Positions 11,091 through 61,359 of a stretch of 64,000 nucleotides of DNA are shown in pieces (the first letter of the stretch is position 1; each line of letters starts with the position of its first letter). Where the stretch lies: positions 62,001 through 126,000 of the forward strand of contig NZ_JAHESF010000001.1 of assembly GCF_018598225.1 (NCBI RefSeq), written 5' to 3'. A model generated the notes under the pieces. It worked only from the letters and a program-made list of their open reading frames with translations. It was not told the DNA's origin and ran no database searches. A program made the translations under genes and the position numbers. The DNA comes from Chryseosolibacter histidinae (GTDB taxonomy: Bacteria; Bacteroidota; Bacteroidia; Cytophagales; Cyclobacteriaceae).

Positions 11091-11239
11091 GAGTCCACGG
11101 TCCACTGTGCGACAGTCCACGGCCGTACCGTGCTGTATTTACTTTTCACAGTCTTTAATAGAAATAAATAACTGTAAACTCTGTAGGATTAAAACCTAAC
11201 GGCGCTGACAGTGGACTGTGGACCGTCGACTGTGGACTC
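11091..11239. repeat. Heptad hairpin element H2 (GTCCACG type)
   Basis: Left arm 11091-11122 (GAGTCCACGGTCCAC) and right arm 11205-11239 (GTGGACTGTGGACC) are inverted copies built of 7-bp words, around an AT-rich loop of about 80 bp. Unlike most heptad elements this one lies between divergent starts rather than at a 3' end. Confidence 0.65.
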
Positions 11240-11245
11240 GTAACC

Positions 11246-11294
11246 AACTTTAACCCTCAAACTTTAAACTTCAAATTTTGAACTTTAAACTTCC
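11246..11294. repeat. Heptad array of seven AACTTTA-type units
   Basis: Exactly 49 bp made of seven 7-bp units (AACTTTA three times, with AACTTCA, AATTTTG, ACCCTCA and AACTTCC variants), 36 bp before the DUF2490 start codon. No inverted partner. It would be transcribed as leader RNA if the promoter lies upstream. Confidence 0.6.
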
Positions 11295-14840: not shown

Positions 14841-14970
14841 AAGTCCATGGTCCATAGTCGATAGTCCATGGTTAGAGCAGTGCCCGGTAGCCAGGCGGAG
14901 CTTCGTGCAGCGCCCCCGGAAACCCAAAGCCGTACCGGCTATGGACTATGGACCATGGTCTATGGACTCC
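14841..14970. repeat. Heptad hairpin element H4 (AGTCCAT type), overlapping a gene end
   Basis: Left arm 14841-14874 and right arm 14939-14970 are inverted arrays of AGTCCAT-type words. The right arm contains the TAG stop (14946-14948) and the last six codons (SIDHGP) of the PQQ-dehydrogenase gene, so the repeat writes that protein's C-terminus. It splits the operon between dehydrogenase and RidA-like genes. Confidence 0.7.
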
Positions 14971-16789: not shown

Positions 16790-18010
16790 TCACTTAAGGC
16801 TCTTGCCCGACAACCCGTTCAGGTCCCACACCACCTCGCCGTTCAGCACCGTCATCTGGCAGGTGAGCTTTTGATCGCCACTGATCCTGAAGCCCTGCGA
16901 GTCAAGGTAACCGAAGTTGCCTTTGTCGAGGCTCAGCAAGGCAATGTCTGCGGGCGATCCTACACTGAGATTTCCCAGCTCCTTGTGATTGATGACCTGC
17001 GCGGGTGTCCACGTTGATGCCCTGACCACTTCATCCAGCGAAAGCCCGATGTTCAGCAGCTTCGACATCACGTTGAGCATGTCTTTCATACCTGCGTTCA
17101 TACTTCCTACGTGCAGGTCGGTGCTGATGGAGTTGGGTTTCAGTCCCTGTTTGATGGCCGGTATCGCCTGGTCGAACAGGAAGCTTGTAGCACCATGGCC
17201 AACATCGAGGATCACGCCACGTTTCTGCGCCTGGAAAGCGAAAGGCTGCACCTTCCCGTTCTCCACCAATGGCATTCTTCCTTTCACTTGTGCATAGCAA
17301 TGGGTGAGGATATCGCCGGGCCGGAGCTTGTGATTCAGCAGGGTGTCCATGGAAAGGGGAGGGTCACCTCCACCGAAGTCGATCATCACGGGGATGCCTG
17401 CAAGCTCGCCGGCCTTCACCGCGCGTTCCGTGGGCGCCCATTCATGACCTGAGTAGTGGGCAAGCTTGATGCCGATAATATATTGAGCGTTCTGTTTGGC
17501 AACCATCGCTGTGAGCTTGGCATCCATGTCTGCAAGATTCTGCTCATAGGCGCCGCCGCGCATGCCCGAGCCCACAATGTTCAGGAAAGCGAATACCCTT
17601 GTTTTGGAGTGATCGATCGTCTGGGTTTTGAACTGTGTAAAATTGCGCCACCCCGACCCTCCCGCATCGGCCACCGTGGTAACGCCTGCCCTGAACGTAA
17701 ATCCGTCAGGAGGCAGCGCTGTAAAGCTGTTGCTCAGGTATGCGTTCTCGGTACCGAAAAAGTAATGACCATGAATATCGATGATGCCCGGTGTGGCATA
17801 GAGACCCGTGGCATCGATCGTTCGTTTAGCCTCTTTGTTAATAGCAGGAGCAACTTCAGCGATCTTGCCTTCACGGATCGCAATATCCATCACGGCATTG
17901 ATATTATTCTTTGGATCGATCACACGGGCTCCCTTGATCAGCAAATCCATTGGCTGACTGTATGTGACCAGGATTGACTGGATGAACAGGATGAACAGGA
18001 TTTTAACCAT
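16790..18010 (-). CDS. Amidohydrolase of the cog3964 (dihydroorotase-like) group
   Basis: 406 residues. Metal ligands of the amidohydrolase barrel are visible: H80 and H82 in DIHGH, carboxylated K182 in IGIKLAHY, H237 in DILTHCY, HG at 272 and D298 in STDLH. Characterised cog3964 relatives hydrolyse N-acetyl-D-amino acids or acetylated hydroxy acids rather than dihydroorotate. Residues 1-20 form a Sec-like signal encoded by a nine-bp ATCCTGTTC-type repeat; MDLLIKGARV at residue 21 (position 17950) is the usual start of cytoplasmic relatives and is the alternative. First gene of the operon, overlapping the next frame if the GTG start is used. Confidence 0.84.
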   Translation of the reverse strand: MVKILFILFIQSILVTYSQPMDLLIKGARVIDPKNNINAVMDIAIREGKIAEVAPAINKEAKRTIDATGLYATPGIIDIHGHYFFGTENAYLSNSFTALPPDGFTFRAGVTTVADAGGSGWRNFTQFKTQTIDHSKTRVFAFLNIVGSGMRGGAYEQNLADMDAKLTAMVAKQNAQYIIGIKLAHYSGHEWAPTERAVKAGELAGIPVMIDFGGGDPPLSMDTLLNHKLRPGDILTHCYAQVKGRMPLVENGKVQPFAFQAQKRGVILDVGHGATSFLFDQAIPAIKQGLKPNSISTDLHVGSMNAGMKDMLNVMSKLLNIGLSLDEVVRASTWTPAQVINHKELGNLSVGSPADIALLSLDKGNFGYLDSQGFRISGDQKLTCQMTVLNGEVVWDLNGLSGKSLK

Positions 18011-18131
18011 GATTGACCAGGATTAATATGATTAGCAGGATTGACAGGATTTGAAGGGTGATACTTGGATCAGGTCATCGAAATCTTGCACTATCTTATA
18101 AGCCTGTAAATCCTTAAATCCTGTAAATCAT
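17955..18131. repeat. AATCCTG-type 9-bp repeat, two inverted arrays
   Basis: On the minus strand, words such as AATCCTGTC and AATCCTGGT recur at 9-bp steps from about 18055 into the amidohydrolase start at 18010 and on through its first 18 codons. A matching array in opposite orientation (CCTGTAAAT words) lies at 18106-18131, so the pair can form a hairpin. The same word occurs before the GH88 gene. Confidence 0.6.
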
Positions 18132-18555: not shown

Positions 18556-19191
18556 ATGGCAAAAGCTAAAAAGGGTAAGGAAGCGGCGCTGGATTTGACA
18601 ACCGAGGAAAAGATCAAAAACGCGGCCCTCAAGGTCTTTACGAAAAAAGGTTTTGCAGCGGCCCGTACCCGCGATATCAGTGAAGAAGCTGGTATCAACC
18701 TGGCATTGCTCAATTATTACTTCCGCAGCAAAGAGAAGTTGTTCGAGCTGGTGATGACGGAGACGCTCCGCGGCTTTATCAAAGGAATGCTGGAGATACT
18801 GAATGATACTGAGACCTCCATCGAAGAGAAAGTAGAGATCTTTGTTACCCGGTATAGCGAATTGCTCATGCAGCAGCCCGACCTTCCTTTGTTCATATTT
18901 CATGAGCTGAAAATGAATCCCGAGCAGCTGGCGTCCAAGTTGGGTGGCGAGGGGTTGTTCAAGTCTTATTTCATCAAGCAGGTGAAGGAGGCAATGGACA
19001 ATGGAAAGCTGCCACGCATGCATCCACTTCATTTTATCATGAATATGGTTGGCCTTACGGTGTTTCCGTTCATCGGCGCGCCATTGCTCCGGCACCTTTC
19101 AGGCGTGGATGCCAAAACATTCAACGGACTGGTAGAAGAACGCAAAACGTTGATCCCGAAATGGATCAAGATGATGATGAAAGGAAAATAG
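18556..19191 (+). CDS. TetR/AcrR-family transcriptional regulator
   Basis: 211 residues. A lysine-rich leader is followed by the TetR DNA-binding domain at about 13-60 (KIKNAALKVFTKKGFAAARTRDISEEAGINLALLNYYFRSKEKLFELVM). The helical C-terminal domain (about 70-205) would bind the inducer and form the dimer. It precedes, in the same orientation, a seven-gene efflux cluster of the YbhGFSR kind, whose E. coli regulator is also a TetR protein, and a palindrome is shared by both upstream regions. Repression of itself and of the efflux operon is inferred. Its TAG stop is the first codon of heptad element H5. Confidence 0.9.
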   Translation: MAKAKKGKEAALDLTTEEKIKNAALKVFTKKGFAAARTRDISEEAGINLALLNYYFRSKEKLFELVMTETLRGFIKGMLEILNDTETSIEEKVEIFVTRYSELLMQQPDLPLFIFHELKMNPEQLASKLGGEGLFKSYFIKQVKEAMDNGKLPRMHPLHFIMNMVGLTVFPFIGAPLLRHLSGVDAKTFNGLVEERKTLIPKWIKMMMKGK

Positions 19192-19322
19192 TCCACGGTC
19201 CATAGTCTATGGTCCATGGCCGGGTAGAGTAGGGATCGAAGCTTCGGCATCGGTCGAGCGGTTATTCGACCCGTATCATTTACTCGGTCCTGCTATGGAC
19301 TATGGACCATCGACTATGGACT
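19189..19322. repeat. Heptad hairpin element H5 (TAGTCCA type)
   Basis: Left arm 19189-19221 starts with the tetR stop codon itself (TAGTCCA, then CGGTCCA) and right arm 19291-19322 is its inverted partner (CTATGGA words). The 69-bp loop has its own short inverted parts (GATCGAAGCTTCGGCATC). It separates tetR from the efflux operon and may end the tetR transcript. Confidence 0.7.
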
Positions 19323-29134: not shown

Positions 29135-29929
29135 ATGACGAAATTAGTGCGTTTTTCTTTGCTCCTGGCATGCCTTGGTTCGTGCGATGCGCCGCCCGAA
29201 AAATCGACAGAAACCTTCCCGCTTCAGGCTGACTTTACCGAACAAGGATGGATCGTATATGAGGGCCGCATTCCCCTGGATGAAAAGCGGAACCTGTACA
29301 TGGAAATTTTTATGCGGCCTGGAAACGAAGCCGGCGAGGGCGACTACCGCTTAACGGAGACCATCGAGGAGGAAACCTCGGTTTACAAGCTGCCGCCTTT
29401 CGCTGGACAATATTCTACCTTCCATGGCGCCCGTCCGGAAGACCTGATCGTACGCTTTCACAATTCGGCACAGCTGGAAGAAGTGAAACGGGTTTACTAC
29501 GATCCGCTGGTGAAAAAGATCAAGGAGCGAAGCCTGCGCAAAACCGACCTCACGTTTCAACGCCAGGGCGATGATGCGCTGATCATGCTCTACCAGAATT
29601 CGGAGCCTGTGAGCCTGGAGGCCCGGTATGTTTTGGCGAAGCGCACATCGCGGCTTTTTACGGTGGAAGGTTATTTTGAACATGCCGGCGACAGCTCACT
29701 GTTCCTTGAAATGAATACCGAAGAACGCTGGCCTGTCTCTAAGCTCGGAGCTTACGATCTGGCCATCCGTCAGTATCACCTGCTGGCCAGGGAAAAATCG
29801 GAAGGCATCTATTTGAAAGGTATCGCTTATTCTATACATCAGGCAGACCGGGAAGGAAAGCCGGTGGATGCGCTGGTATTGAAGAAGGTTATCCAGATGA
29901 CATCGGCGCCGTTAGAGGAAGTTAATTGA
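29135..29929 (+). CDS. Hypothetical lipoprotein
   Basis: 264 residues with a lipoprotein signal (LLLACLGSC, Cys about 18). The mature part is beta-rich and hydrophilic (GWIVYEGRIPLDEKRNLYMEIFMRP, GDYRLTETIEE, ALIMLYQNSEPVSLEARYVLAKR) and ends with a C-terminal domain containing ERWPVSKLGAYDLAIRQYHLLA. The alternation of short strands recalls NlpE-type lipoprotein barrels, but the CxxC motif of NlpE is absent, so I do not assign that name. No operon partner. Its stop is followed by an 8-bp hairpin (GCAGGATG/CATCCTGC, 29965-29989) and the 21-bp array. Confidence 0.7.
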   Translation: MTKLVRFSLLLACLGSCDAPPEKSTETFPLQADFTEQGWIVYEGRIPLDEKRNLYMEIFMRPGNEAGEGDYRLTETIEEETSVYKLPPFAGQYSTFHGARPEDLIVRFHNSAQLEEVKRVYYDPLVKKIKERSLRKTDLTFQRQGDDALIMLYQNSEPVSLEARYVLAKRTSRLFTVEGYFEHAGDSSLFLEMNTEERWPVSKLGAYDLAIRQYHLLAREKSEGIYLKGIAYSIHQADREGKPVDALVLKKVIQMTSAPLEEVN

Positions 29930-29984
29930 ATAGGACAACGACAATTTGCGACGGAGCAGATCATGCAGGATGAACAAACGGCAT

Positions 29985-30341
29985 CCTGCGCAATGAGACA
30001 TCTACTATAGGGGATGGAACAGCGCTTATACGCAATGAGGTATTTGCTGTAAGCGAAGCCGTAAAAACAATAGACTACACGATAAAGAAAAAAAGATCTG
30101 TAGCATTTCCTTAAGGAAATGGAGTAAAGTCAATAGAAAATGGCTTTTCTTCTTAAGAACATGATATTTTTCGTTAAGGGAATGTGGTATTTCCTTAAGA
30201 AAAAAACGTATTGCTTACGGGGAATGAAACAAAGTCAATAGGATCTGTGGCATTTCCTTAAGAAAAAAAGATAAATCCAATAGGAAATGAAGTAAAGTCT
30301 TAAGGAAACTTCCCGCCTTCTTAAGGAGATGCCTCGCCAAT
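29985..30341. repeat. Degenerate tandem array of seventeen 21-bp units
   Basis: The word TTAAG occurs at 30111, 30153, 30174, 30195, 30258, 30300 and 30321; all spacings are multiples of 21 (42, 21, 21, 63, 42, 21). Intervening 21-bp steps start with related words (AATAGGAAATG, TACGGGGAATG, TATAGGGGATG). Half-units end in AAAGTC or ATTTCC, and where ATTTCC meets TTAAGGAAAT the junction is a perfect 16-bp palindrome (30105-30120). 21 divides by three, but stops occur in all useful frames, so it is not coding. It lies between two convergent genes. Confidence 0.7.
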
Positions 30342-30347
30342 TTAAAA

Positions 30348-30377
30348 CCCTTTGAGGGGTTTTAAACCCTCAAAGGG
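30348..30377 (-). terminator. Hairpin at the end of the alginate-lyase-family gene
   Basis: A perfect 11-bp stem (CCCTTTGAGGG with CCCTCAAAGGG, 8-base loop) 32 bp after the stop of the minus-strand gene. On that strand it is followed by TTTTAAATT, a weak T-run, so it probably ends the PUL transcript. Confidence 0.6.
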
Positions 30378-30408: not shown

Positions 30409-31584
30409 TCAGTTGAACCAAATGACCGGATTTCGGATCGGGAGATTACGAACGACCTCAACCACCTCGGGTTTATGATCCAGATTCTTCCAGGTCGAAT
30501 ACCAGTCATCTTTGCCGAAAGCCTGCGCACCGAATAATAAAAATGGTTGTGCTACAGGCCAGTTCTCCCAATACATCACATCTTTCCCATAAGGCCATGA
30601 TGATTTATCACGAATAAAGGGATATAAAAAGTCCAGGCCCTTGCGGATCGATCTTCCATCGGCTGTTTGAAAATTCCACAAATCGTTTTTGGCGTCTGAT
30701 AAAATGTGGCACACCATGGCCATCGCATCCAGGTTGAAGATAGAATAGCCATAGGGCTTAGTTCTGTTGATCTCGAGTGGAAAGCTCCCGTCTTCTTTCA
30801 TCTGATTGGGAAGCAATACGGTCTTATAACGATCGCGGCAAAAGGTGAGCAATTCCTGGTTGCCTGTTAGTGTTGCATAGCTCGCTACCTGCATAACCCA
30901 GCACGTGCTGTGATTATTCTTCGTGTTCATTTCATCTTTGCCATACTGATGAGATGTCAGCCAGGTAAGATAATCTGTAAACCATTTTTTAGTTCCTTCA
31001 ATGACAGCAGCATCTGTGCTTTTTGCATGTTCCAGTTTCTTAACACCCTGTGCCACTTCCATGAGGTGAATGGTATCAATAATTCCATAACCCCTGCCGG
31101 TAACCCGTCCCTTGATCGCCTGCGCAAACTCCATGCTTGGATTCATACGGGTGTCTGCGTTGATAAACCACGCTTTCAAATGAAGCATCGCATGCTTTAC
31201 ATACTTCTCTTTCCCCGTAAGAATGTATGCCGATGCAAGCGATCCGATAATCCTGCTAAAACGGATCATGGCAAACCTATGATCAGTAAAGATGCCCGGG
31301 TTCGTCACACCATCGCGGTTCACATAAGGGCCGTCAGGATTCAGCGAATCGGGCCAGAAATAATCGGCTTCAGAAAAGAAATCATGTTTCGTACCCGCAC
31401 TTCTCGGTGAAGTACTTGCCGTAACCGTAACCGGTTTCTGTTTCAAGGCCCAATCTGCTTCACTCAGAACTTGCTTGCGCAAAACTTCAGCAACCTTGCT
31501 TCGATAGTCCTGTGCTACCAGTTCCTGAGCGTTGATAATTACGGCAATAACGATGAGCAGGTATTTAATTCGCATAGTGGTCAC
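30409..31584 (-). CDS. Alginate-lyase-family polysaccharide lyase
   Basis: 391 residues (or 388 from the ATG at 31575) with a signal peptide ending LVAQ. It matches the PF05426 alginate lyase superfamily, an (alpha/alpha) toroid: FWPDSLNPDGPYVNRDG near residue 75, the substrate loop KNNHSTCWVMQVASYA (about 224-240) with the N-N-H catalytic triplet, and GSFPLEINRTKPYGYSIFNLDAM. Many relatives outside PL5 act on other uronic-acid glycans or are uncharacterised. It is last in the PUL, with an 84-bp repeat-filled gap to the GH88 gene, so the substrate is inferred from the cluster rather than the sequence. Confidence 0.8.
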   Translation of the reverse strand: MTTMRIKYLLIVIAVIINAQELVAQDYRSKVAEVLRKQVLSEADWALKQKPVTVTASTSPRSAGTKHDFFSEADYFWPDSLNPDGPYVNRDGVTNPGIFTDHRFAMIRFSRIIGSLASAYILTGKEKYVKHAMLHLKAWFINADTRMNPSMEFAQAIKGRVTGRGYGIIDTIHLMEVAQGVKKLEHAKSTDAAVIEGTKKWFTDYLTWLTSHQYGKDEMNTKNNHSTCWVMQVASYATLTGNQELLTFCRDRYKTVLLPNQMKEDGSFPLEINRTKPYGYSIFNLDAMAMVCHILSDAKNDLWNFQTADGRSIRKGLDFLYPFIRDKSSWPYGKDVMYWENWPVAQPFLLFGAQAFGKDDWYSTWKNLDHKPEVVEVVRNLPIRNPVIWFN

Positions 31585-32928: not shown

Positions 32929-32972
32929 GATTAAACCAGGATTAACAGGATTATAGGATTAACAGGATTAAT
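32926..32972. repeat. AATCCTG-type 9-bp repeat at the GH88 start
   Basis: On the minus strand, AATCCTGTT, AATCCTATA and AATCCTGGT words run directly into the GH88 ATG (32926-32928). The junction (AATCCTGGTTTAATCATG) is nearly the same as at the amidohydrolase start (18010). The remaining bases to 33009 show nothing else. Confidence 0.6.
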
Positions 32973-48730: not shown

Positions 48731-49007
48731 AATAGTCCACAGTCCACGGTCGACGGTCCACAGACGGAAACCGCCTCTTGAAACCGGTATCCTGAGCGAT
48801 GAATGAGGGCGGAACGTGCAAGCGAAGGATCCCGTAATGGCAGCGTGCTTACAATGTGAACAGGTTCATGAAGTAAATACGCAGTAAACATCAGGAGCCC
48901 TCGCTCACCCGCAGCCCCTCGCTCTAATCACTGCTCTGGACAGTCTTCGAAGGATGGATGCTGTGGACTGTGGACCGTCGACAGTGGACTATTGACTGGA
49001 CTATTGA
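48731..49007. repeat. Heptad hairpin element H10 (TAGTCCA type) with inserted dispersed repeat
   Basis: Left arm 48731-48767 (AATAGTCCACAGTCC) and right arm 48960-49007 (CTGTGGACTGTGGAC) are inverted, about 190 bp apart, between two convergent genes that both end in TAG. The loop contains the dispersed segment 48788-48840 (ATCCTGAGCG to GAAGGATCCC), so one repeat may have inserted into another. No gene is present. Confidence 0.65.
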
Positions 49008-58367: not shown

Positions 58368-58517
58368 GCGGTTGCCAGTTGCCAGTTACCGGATAGCCAG
58401 TTTCGAGTACGGAGGACCATCACGCCTGTGTTTCAAATCCAGGTGATGCGAAGCACAGTTTAAAATGTTTAAAACACGCAGGAACCGGCAACTGGTAACC
58501 GGCAACTGGCAACTAGT
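58368..58517. repeat. Compound heptad element H11 (GTTGCCA type, conserved core)
   Basis: Left heptads (GGTTGCC, AGTTGCC, AGTTACC) begin 3 bp after the stop; right heptads (GGCAACT, GGTAACC) end at 58514. The core (GAGTACGGAGGACCATCACG and CAGTTTAAAATGTT..ACACGCAGG) is shared with H12 and in part H13, and contains its own inner stem. One of three copies at the 3' ends of three nearby genes. Confidence 0.75.
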
Positions 58518-61226: not shown

Positions 61227-61359
61227 GTTACCGGTTGCCAGTTGCCAGATAGCCAGTTTCGAGTACGGAGGACCATCACGCCTGCGTTTCAATCCAAGAA
61301 CAGTTTAAAATGTTGAAACACGCAGGAACCGGCAACTGGTAACCGGCAACTGGCAACTA
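61227..61359. repeat. Compound heptad element H12 (GTTGCCA type, conserved core)
   Basis: Begins with the base after the TAA stop (GTTACCG, then GTTGCCA twice) and ends 12 bp before the next start codon (GGCAACT, GGTAACC, GGCAACT twice). The inner stem CCTGCGTTTCAA with TTGAAACACGCAGG is strongest in this copy. It occupies the whole intergenic space. Confidence 0.75.

Follow-up and report, generated by a model that had tools for sequence, protein, structure and literature searches.

The nearest published system that we found is BrickBuilt (Klein et al. 2015), a dispersed intergenic minisatellite or MITE of Porphyromonas gingivalis, which the accessible sections of the paper describe as a 23-nt unit with a leader, a tail and terminal inverted repeats (PMC4596501). 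The TAACTGA heptamer arrays (MacGregor 2015) are mostly intergenic and patchy over distant phyla, with no dispersal route evident in the portion of the report available (PMC4679880). REP and REPIN sequences are, according to the excerpted description, palindromes of 20-40 bp tagged GTAG or CGTC (PMC3733652). In plasmid partition centromeres (ParR-parC, omega-parS and TubR), the consulted extract has iterated sites on which dimers load next to one another to form a helical nucleoprotein complex (PMC5016525). The titles and abstract openings searched, which cover few subscription journals, name no 21-bp palindromic array of the AAGRAAATG-NNN-CATYTYCTT kind. To our knowledge, short-period intergenic arrays have no accepted function.

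The array described here lies in a stretch of 64,000 nucleotides of Chryseosolibacter histidinae (the window), and three sister arrays lie elsewhere in the genome. As in the available account of BrickBuilt (PMC4596501), spacer-free tandem units are dispersed over several intergenic loci, and the units are imperfect, with conserved and variable positions, can form long stems and match no Rfam family. Against the 23 nt of BrickBuilt, the arrays have a period of 21 bp in 55 of 59 intervals, with the other four at 20 or 22. They also lack a leader, a tail and inverted ends, and blastn at E 1e-3 finds no shared pair among their eight flanks (350 bp each, some shorter at the fetched ends). Iterated sites in helical phase are a feature in common with partition centromere arrays as extracted (PMC5016525), but here four scattered arrays occupy three contigs, with no partition family among the neighbours scanned. 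Like the TAACTGA arrays in the part of that report available, arrays of this type are intergenic and patchy across phyla without an evident dispersal route, whereas that system consists of 7-bp direct repeats (PMC4679880) and the 21-bp arrays lack a 7-bp sub-period. The resemblance to REP/REPIN elements with RAYT transposases lies in intergenic palindromic repeats and in a Y1 transposase gene near one sister array; unlike them, the consensus carries no GTAG or CGTC tag, the arrays are long and gap-free, and a scan of six neighbours of the remaining three arrays showed no Y1 transposase.

The window array is a non-coding stretch of 357 bp between two ordinary genes (Table 1). Its column score at period 21 is 0.453, compared with 0.274 ± 0.008 in 2000 dinucleotide shuffles (z 22.7), and the best score reached by 500 shuffles over all periods from 10 to 40 is 0.319. 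The 15 top-scoring 210-bp stretches for this score in the 64 kb all start inside the array. The first-pass annotation had reported seven copies of TTAAG separated by multiples of 21 bp, and this is correct: they start at 30111, 30153, 30174, 30195, 30258, 30300 and 30321, with no others in the array. The 16-bp palindrome that it placed at a unit junction is indeed perfect and is unique in the window. At a score of 30, Tandem Repeats Finder returns no row for this interval, an outcome that the first-pass annotation had named as refuting the array, although the period is present at z about 23; the program probably misses it because the units are just 47% alike. The 21-bp array is thus confirmed, its period standing out statistically where a tandem-repeat finder reports nothing. 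Units to the left of about 30090 are more degenerate, and one further weak unit can be made out by eye at 29964-29984. Judging by its start, the upstream protein is probably a lipoprotein. A promoter scan at the window array gave no promoter-like site.

Table 1. Positions of the array, its parts and its neighbours (window numbering except where a locus is named).
Feature	Position	Strand	Basis or remark
21-bp array, 17 units	29985..30341	.	Period score and TTAAG positions
Perfect 16-bp palindrome ATTTCCTTAAGGAAAT	30105..30120	.	Unit junction
Example unit re-phased to the dyad, AAGGAAATG-GAG-TAAAGTCAA	30113..30133	.	Left half-site, three central bases, degenerate right half-site
Upstream gene, 264-aa protein	29135..29929	+	Weak match to NlpE C-terminal OB domain, just below cut-off
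Convergent gene, alginate lyase family (PF05426)	30409..31584	-	Pfam
Terminator-like hairpin between array and alginate lyase gene	30348..30377	-	1 found versus 0.6 ± 0.8 in shuffles
CCCTTTGAGGG word in flanks of two arrays	30348-30377 (window) and about 1385-1405 (L011)		Local alignment

Searching the genome for further copies turned up three more arrays. The four places are the window, contig C34 near 212 kb, C45 near 127 kb and C31 near 97 kb; the contigs that carry them number three and measure 137-481 kb. The simple pattern CTTAAG-N15-CTTAAG has seven forward matches in the genome, distributed over these four places, and one in the reversed control. The palindromic pattern AAGRA-N11-TYCTTAAGRA has 10 matches (0 in controls), and a sequence profile, partly trained on the same four arrays, has 31 on both strands at E 0.01 or less; all matches of both kinds fall within the four arrays. 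Just four arrays were found in 8.04 Mb, and since exact patterns overlook degenerate arrays, such counts of arrays, and those of array-bearing genomes below, are lower bounds.

All four arrays sit between long open reading frames (ORFs). The flanking genes are convergent at the window array, divergent at C34/212 kb and co-directional at C45 and C31; thus, the argument that convergent neighbours speak against a promoter does not generalize. Among 11 nearby proteins scanned with Pfam (three without any family) there is no common partner. Concerning the iteron or centromere-like role first suggested, none of them belongs to a family known from partition or replication, and four arrays scattered in this way hardly resemble a single centromere. 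Local alignment of the 150-bp flanks finds one hairpin word, CCCTTTGAGGG, common to the window and C34/212-kb arrays, with a score of 33 compared with a maximum of 23 in 60 shuffled pairs. At the C45 array, an upstream sigma-70-like ORF terminates inside the first TTAAG unit, and a Y1 transposase (RAYT-like) gene (L009, 3823-4470) lies about 1.1 kb away.

We pooled 55 units of the four arrays. The C34/212-kb array does not contribute its unit of odd length, nor do C45 and C31 contribute weaker units at their edges. The consensus, TTAAGRAAATG-NNN-CATYTYC, becomes AAGRAAATG-NNN-CATYTYCTT when re-phased, a full-length palindrome of two 9-bp half-sites with three free bases at the dyad. Palindromy had been noted earlier for the TTAAG junctions; it is present there, but is not confined to them and spans the whole 21-bp unit. 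Across the 55 units, the central positions 12-14 hold 0.02-0.17 bit and the other positions 0.40-1.21 bits. The two most frequent bases are complementary in all nine mirrored half-site pairs, compared with 0-4 of 10 pairs at 20 other centers, and the best mirror center is identical in all four arrays. The minor bases of mirrored columns agree as well, transversions included (A to T, A to C), and both strands of these arrays are matched by a profile that was built from a single orientation. In columns 1-11 and 19-21, likeness is much the same between arrays (0.49-0.62) and within them (0.50-0.74); in columns 12-18 the ranges are 0.29-0.43 and 0.34-0.62 (random, 0.26). The edges of the arrays are degenerate.

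The halves of a unit do not covary in this genome when all nine pairs are taken together (0.505 versus 0.507 expected), and covariation across junctions is weak (0.547 versus 0.515, z 1.7). Exceptions are the inner TTAA pair (0.65 versus 0.47, p 0.003; within arrays, p 0.02) and one junction pair (p 0.04). This combination, a preference that is symmetric but little compensation between paired positions, would be expected of a symmetric protein that reads half-sites independently, and is less like a selected RNA stem.

Spacing was read from a circular profile alignment. It is exactly 21 bp in all 44 intervals of three arrays (C31, 15; C45, 14; window, 15), whose units are 67%, 46% and 47% alike, respectively. 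The exceptions all belong to the C34/212-kb array, where two compensated 22/20 pairs restore the phase. A 21-bp period combined with a palindromic unit gives one dyad per 10.5 bp, so that, assuming 10.5 bp per turn, half-sites point toward the same side of the helix each turn in alternating orientation. Helical phasing of palindromic sites thus turns out stronger than first claimed, as the spacing is kept in strongly diverged units. DNA diverging freely by ordinary mutation over time should gather insertions and deletions, and we infer from their scarcity a constraint on spacing. A link between the 21-bp array and the 7-bp repeats of the window had also been proposed and is not borne out: at lags 7, 14, 28, 35, 49 and 56 the mean departs from background by no more than 1.4 s.d. 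in any of the four arrays (window, z +1.0; the others, -1.4, +0.3 and -1.4). A 7-bp origin was rejected on this ground. Column scores of the window array are also raised at periods 14, 28 and 35 (0.34-0.35), presumably because these share multiples with 21.

Arrays of this kind occur in distant bacteria. When a collection of 84,980 species was scanned for two typical units side by side, 68 stretches emerged, and in 15 of them the 21-bp column score reaches at least 0.44. The remaining 53 were left out, although L040, L058 and L077, from one Bacteroidales assembly, show a few typical units by eye. Four of the 15 stand outside the family statistics: L104, which by eye resembles coding sequence, and L100, L105 and L106, whose units differ in sequence; L105 entered a single comparison table. 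Profile matches in nine genomes number 61 in the termite-gut Treponema sp. Im510_bin16 (G391), 35 in Tannerella forsythia OH1426 (G389), 29 in Bacteroidetes bacterium RH-23may17-974 (G387), 15 in a Kapabacterium (G388), three in G407, a relative of the Treponema, two in G390, and one, one and none in three others; G391, G389 and G388 supplied training rows for the profile and the rest of the nine did not. At least two loci, with a consensus particular to the genome, are present in each of five genomes, namely our own (G000), G391, G389, G388 and G387; in the Bacteroidota other than our own the half-sites are different ones. The Treponema has twelve 21-bp array loci (L285-L296), many with other shared repeats in their flanks. 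The seven Tannerella arrays (L303-L309) possibly represent a BrickBuilt-like element; some show short common edges by eye, CTCTATCATAAGGA on one side and TCCTTCAAGTAAAAAACGATCGCTGTCCGAT on the other, and blastn of their flanks gives just one short pair. In array-bearing genomes other than our own, 20 flanking proteins, 14 with a Pfam family, show no recurrent family.

Spacing is 21 bp in 145 of 145 intervals in the Treponema, 25 of 25 in the Kapabacterium, 7 of 7 in G407 and 7 of 8 in G390. It is looser in Tannerella (76 of 82, the other six at 20 bp) and in G387 (68 of 75). The mirror center coincides with that of C. histidinae in the Treponema (0.66, next best 0.19), the Kapabacterium (0.43, next 0.13) and G407 (0.58, next 0.37), is ambiguous in G387 (0.51 and 0.50) and differs in Tannerella and G390 (center 10). 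At the C. histidinae center, complementary top-two pairs number eight in the Treponema (at most four at other centers), seven in G407 (five), six in the Kapabacterium (five), five in G390 (five) and three each in G387 and Tannerella (four in both cases). Symmetry is therefore clear in C. histidinae and the Treponema and weaker in the Kapabacterium and G407; the kinship of the Tannerella-type arrays lies in layout and not in exact symmetry. In several Treponema arrays both half-sites are altered jointly, as where AAGACAATG accompanies AAGACAACA. Within Treponema arrays the halves covary (z 4.9) with no excess of G-T pairs, and there is covariation in G387 as well (z 4.4). Half-sites that change together without such an excess suggest that the Treponema symmetry is kept at the DNA level.

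The palindromic pattern has at least one match in 87 of 295 family genomes, and for this one exact pattern no clustered matches were seen, judging the list by eye, in the 294 genomes besides our own. In an even draw of 295 class genomes, a stricter pattern matched four, our own four times and three others once each, and its reversed control matched seven by our own count; from the matched letters, two of the three single matches are loci L041 and L105. With the profile, under stricter filters, weak matches (E 0.001-0.01) appear in 13 of 58 other relatives, one or two in each, and neither genome of the same genus has any. Homologs of the upstream 264-aa protein (44-48% identity) occur in both same-genus genomes, with other neighbors there. 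In two other genomes of the same order, 21-bp arrays that are almost perfect combine CTTAAG junctions with middles of unrelated sequence (L034, about 1438-1648; L038, about 1501-1732), and short heptad-like ORFs span each array. In viral sequences, the simple pattern gave 47 stretches with one match each and a best 21-bp column score of 0.407, and the palindromic pattern gave none; blastn of one Treponema array against plasmids and of one Tannerella array against phages returned nothing. A phage or plasmid origin was rejected on these grounds.

What the arrays do can be considered at the level of protein, RNA or DNA. Decay of a gene encoding heptad repeats (LKEMxHL, 21 bp being seven codons) would fit the frame CTT AAG GAA ATG NNN CAT CTT, which places the variable bases on one codon and is open in some arrays. 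Stops also fall below column shuffles in two of six window frames (2 versus 8.0 and 4 versus 7.8) and two of six C31 frames (0 versus 3.0 and 0 versus 2.5), a deficit that may be due to linked unit types. However, the window array has stops in all six frames (12, 5, 7, 4, 2 and 8), and third codon positions show no clear relaxation (conservation 0.75, versus 0.81 at first and 0.83 at second positions). Coding heptads were rejected on these two grounds; one sister array additionally shifts phase, all four lie outside long ORFs, and a decayed gene is hardly credible. It is unlikely, though less so, that the arrays work in the form of RNA or single-stranded DNA, with the units folding into successive 21-nt hairpins or a single long stem to end or stabilize transcripts. 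Folding is much stronger than in dinucleotide shuffles for all 12 array-strands (window z -5.4 and -3.7) and stronger than in column-shuffled arrays for all 12 (window plus strand z -3.7); a second set beats column shuffles in 15 of 16 cases (z -2 or lower in 7 of 16) and unit-order shuffles in 14 of 16. Most of this strength comes from the palindromic consensus, beyond which a modest, consistent gain remains, clearest in our genome for the window plus strand but small in most of its array-strands. The covariation of mirrored columns in Treponema and G387, and of the inner TTAA pair in C. histidinae, would suit a stem, whereas its absence over the nine C. histidinae pairs, with weak junctions, would not. 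Furthermore, G-T pairs are not above A-C pairs, hence there is no sign of one transcribed strand, and one array lies between divergent genes. With Rfam 15 at the gathering score, 15 loci yield a single match, a tRNA that lies outside the L081 array, and the window has three sub-threshold matches (E 0.79-0.95). Intrinsic curvature from phased A- and T-runs, with the bend used rather than the base sequence, is very improbable. In a dinucleotide wedge model, the four arrays reach a maximum curvature at the 98th to 100th percentile of window values and a mean at the 85th to 94th, but any 21-bp repeat sums its bends in phase, and a bend alone needs neither a fixed half-site nor complementary minor bases in mirrored columns.

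The best reading, which we hold tentatively and at somewhat below an even chance, is that the arrays are dispersed intergenic sets of phased dimer operators for a candidate homodimeric protein stacking on one face of the DNA. The array would act at the DNA level, with one dimer per unit reading its half-sites independently and neighboring dimers stacking along one helix face into a filament or cluster; chromosome organization, local silencing or upkeep of the element itself are candidate purposes. In favor of operators are the low information at the three central bases, the nine of nine mirrored pairs, the spacing and a dyad position common to Treponema, G407 and the Kapabacterium. Against them, no binding protein was found and no neighbor gene is shared among the proteins scanned, the distribution is very patchy, with so few arrays in the genome, spacing is laxer in Tannerella and G387, and the edges are degenerate. 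Nearly as likely, and close behind mainly because of the patchy distribution, is a minisatellite of the BrickBuilt kind without host function, which would grow by slippage or unequal exchange, helped by hairpins, spread, and decay from its edges. Degenerate edges, neighbors of many kinds and the repeated occurrence of loci sharing a consensus of their own in each of five genomes all agree with it, and Porphyromonas gingivalis supplies a precedent in the accessible text (PMC4596501). Hairpin-driven expansion could be another source of a palindromic unit, and the covariation in Treponema, G387 and the inner TTAA pair could be produced by template switching or a stem as well as by a protein. Plain decay, however, would not be expected to hold the spacing despite strong sequence divergence, nor to yield peak variability at the dyad center with mirrored minor bases.

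A wider form of the operator reading is unlikely: each array-bearing genome in Bacteroidota, Kapabacteria and Spirochaetes would have its own half-site and its own candidate DNA-coating protein, changing together, and a small number of intergenic arrays would nucleate protein filaments that serve chromosome layout, segregation or silencing. Two-turn spacing and mirrored half-sites in diverged units predict a specific dimeric binding protein; if no such protein exists, the arrays reveal to what extent a minisatellite without function can preserve its phase and symmetry.

The genome is rich in intergenic arrays of short period. A 0.8-Mb sample, picked because it holds three of the arrays, contains 38 periodic stretches, most outside long open frames, and 27 of the 38 have a 7-bp period. 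Its 21- and 42-bp stretches comprise three arrays of the palindrome kind and two inside long open frames. In the window, 7-bp degenerate arrays of several unit families lie at 11207-11292, 14842-14968, 19188-19322, 48734-48998, 58483-58514 and 61327-61358, among others, and are akin in kind to the heptamer arrays as described in the available part of PMC4679880. Arrays with a 9-bp period, of the CAGGATTAA / CCTGTAAAT type, form another repeat family at 17965-18051, 18103-18129 and 32929-32971.
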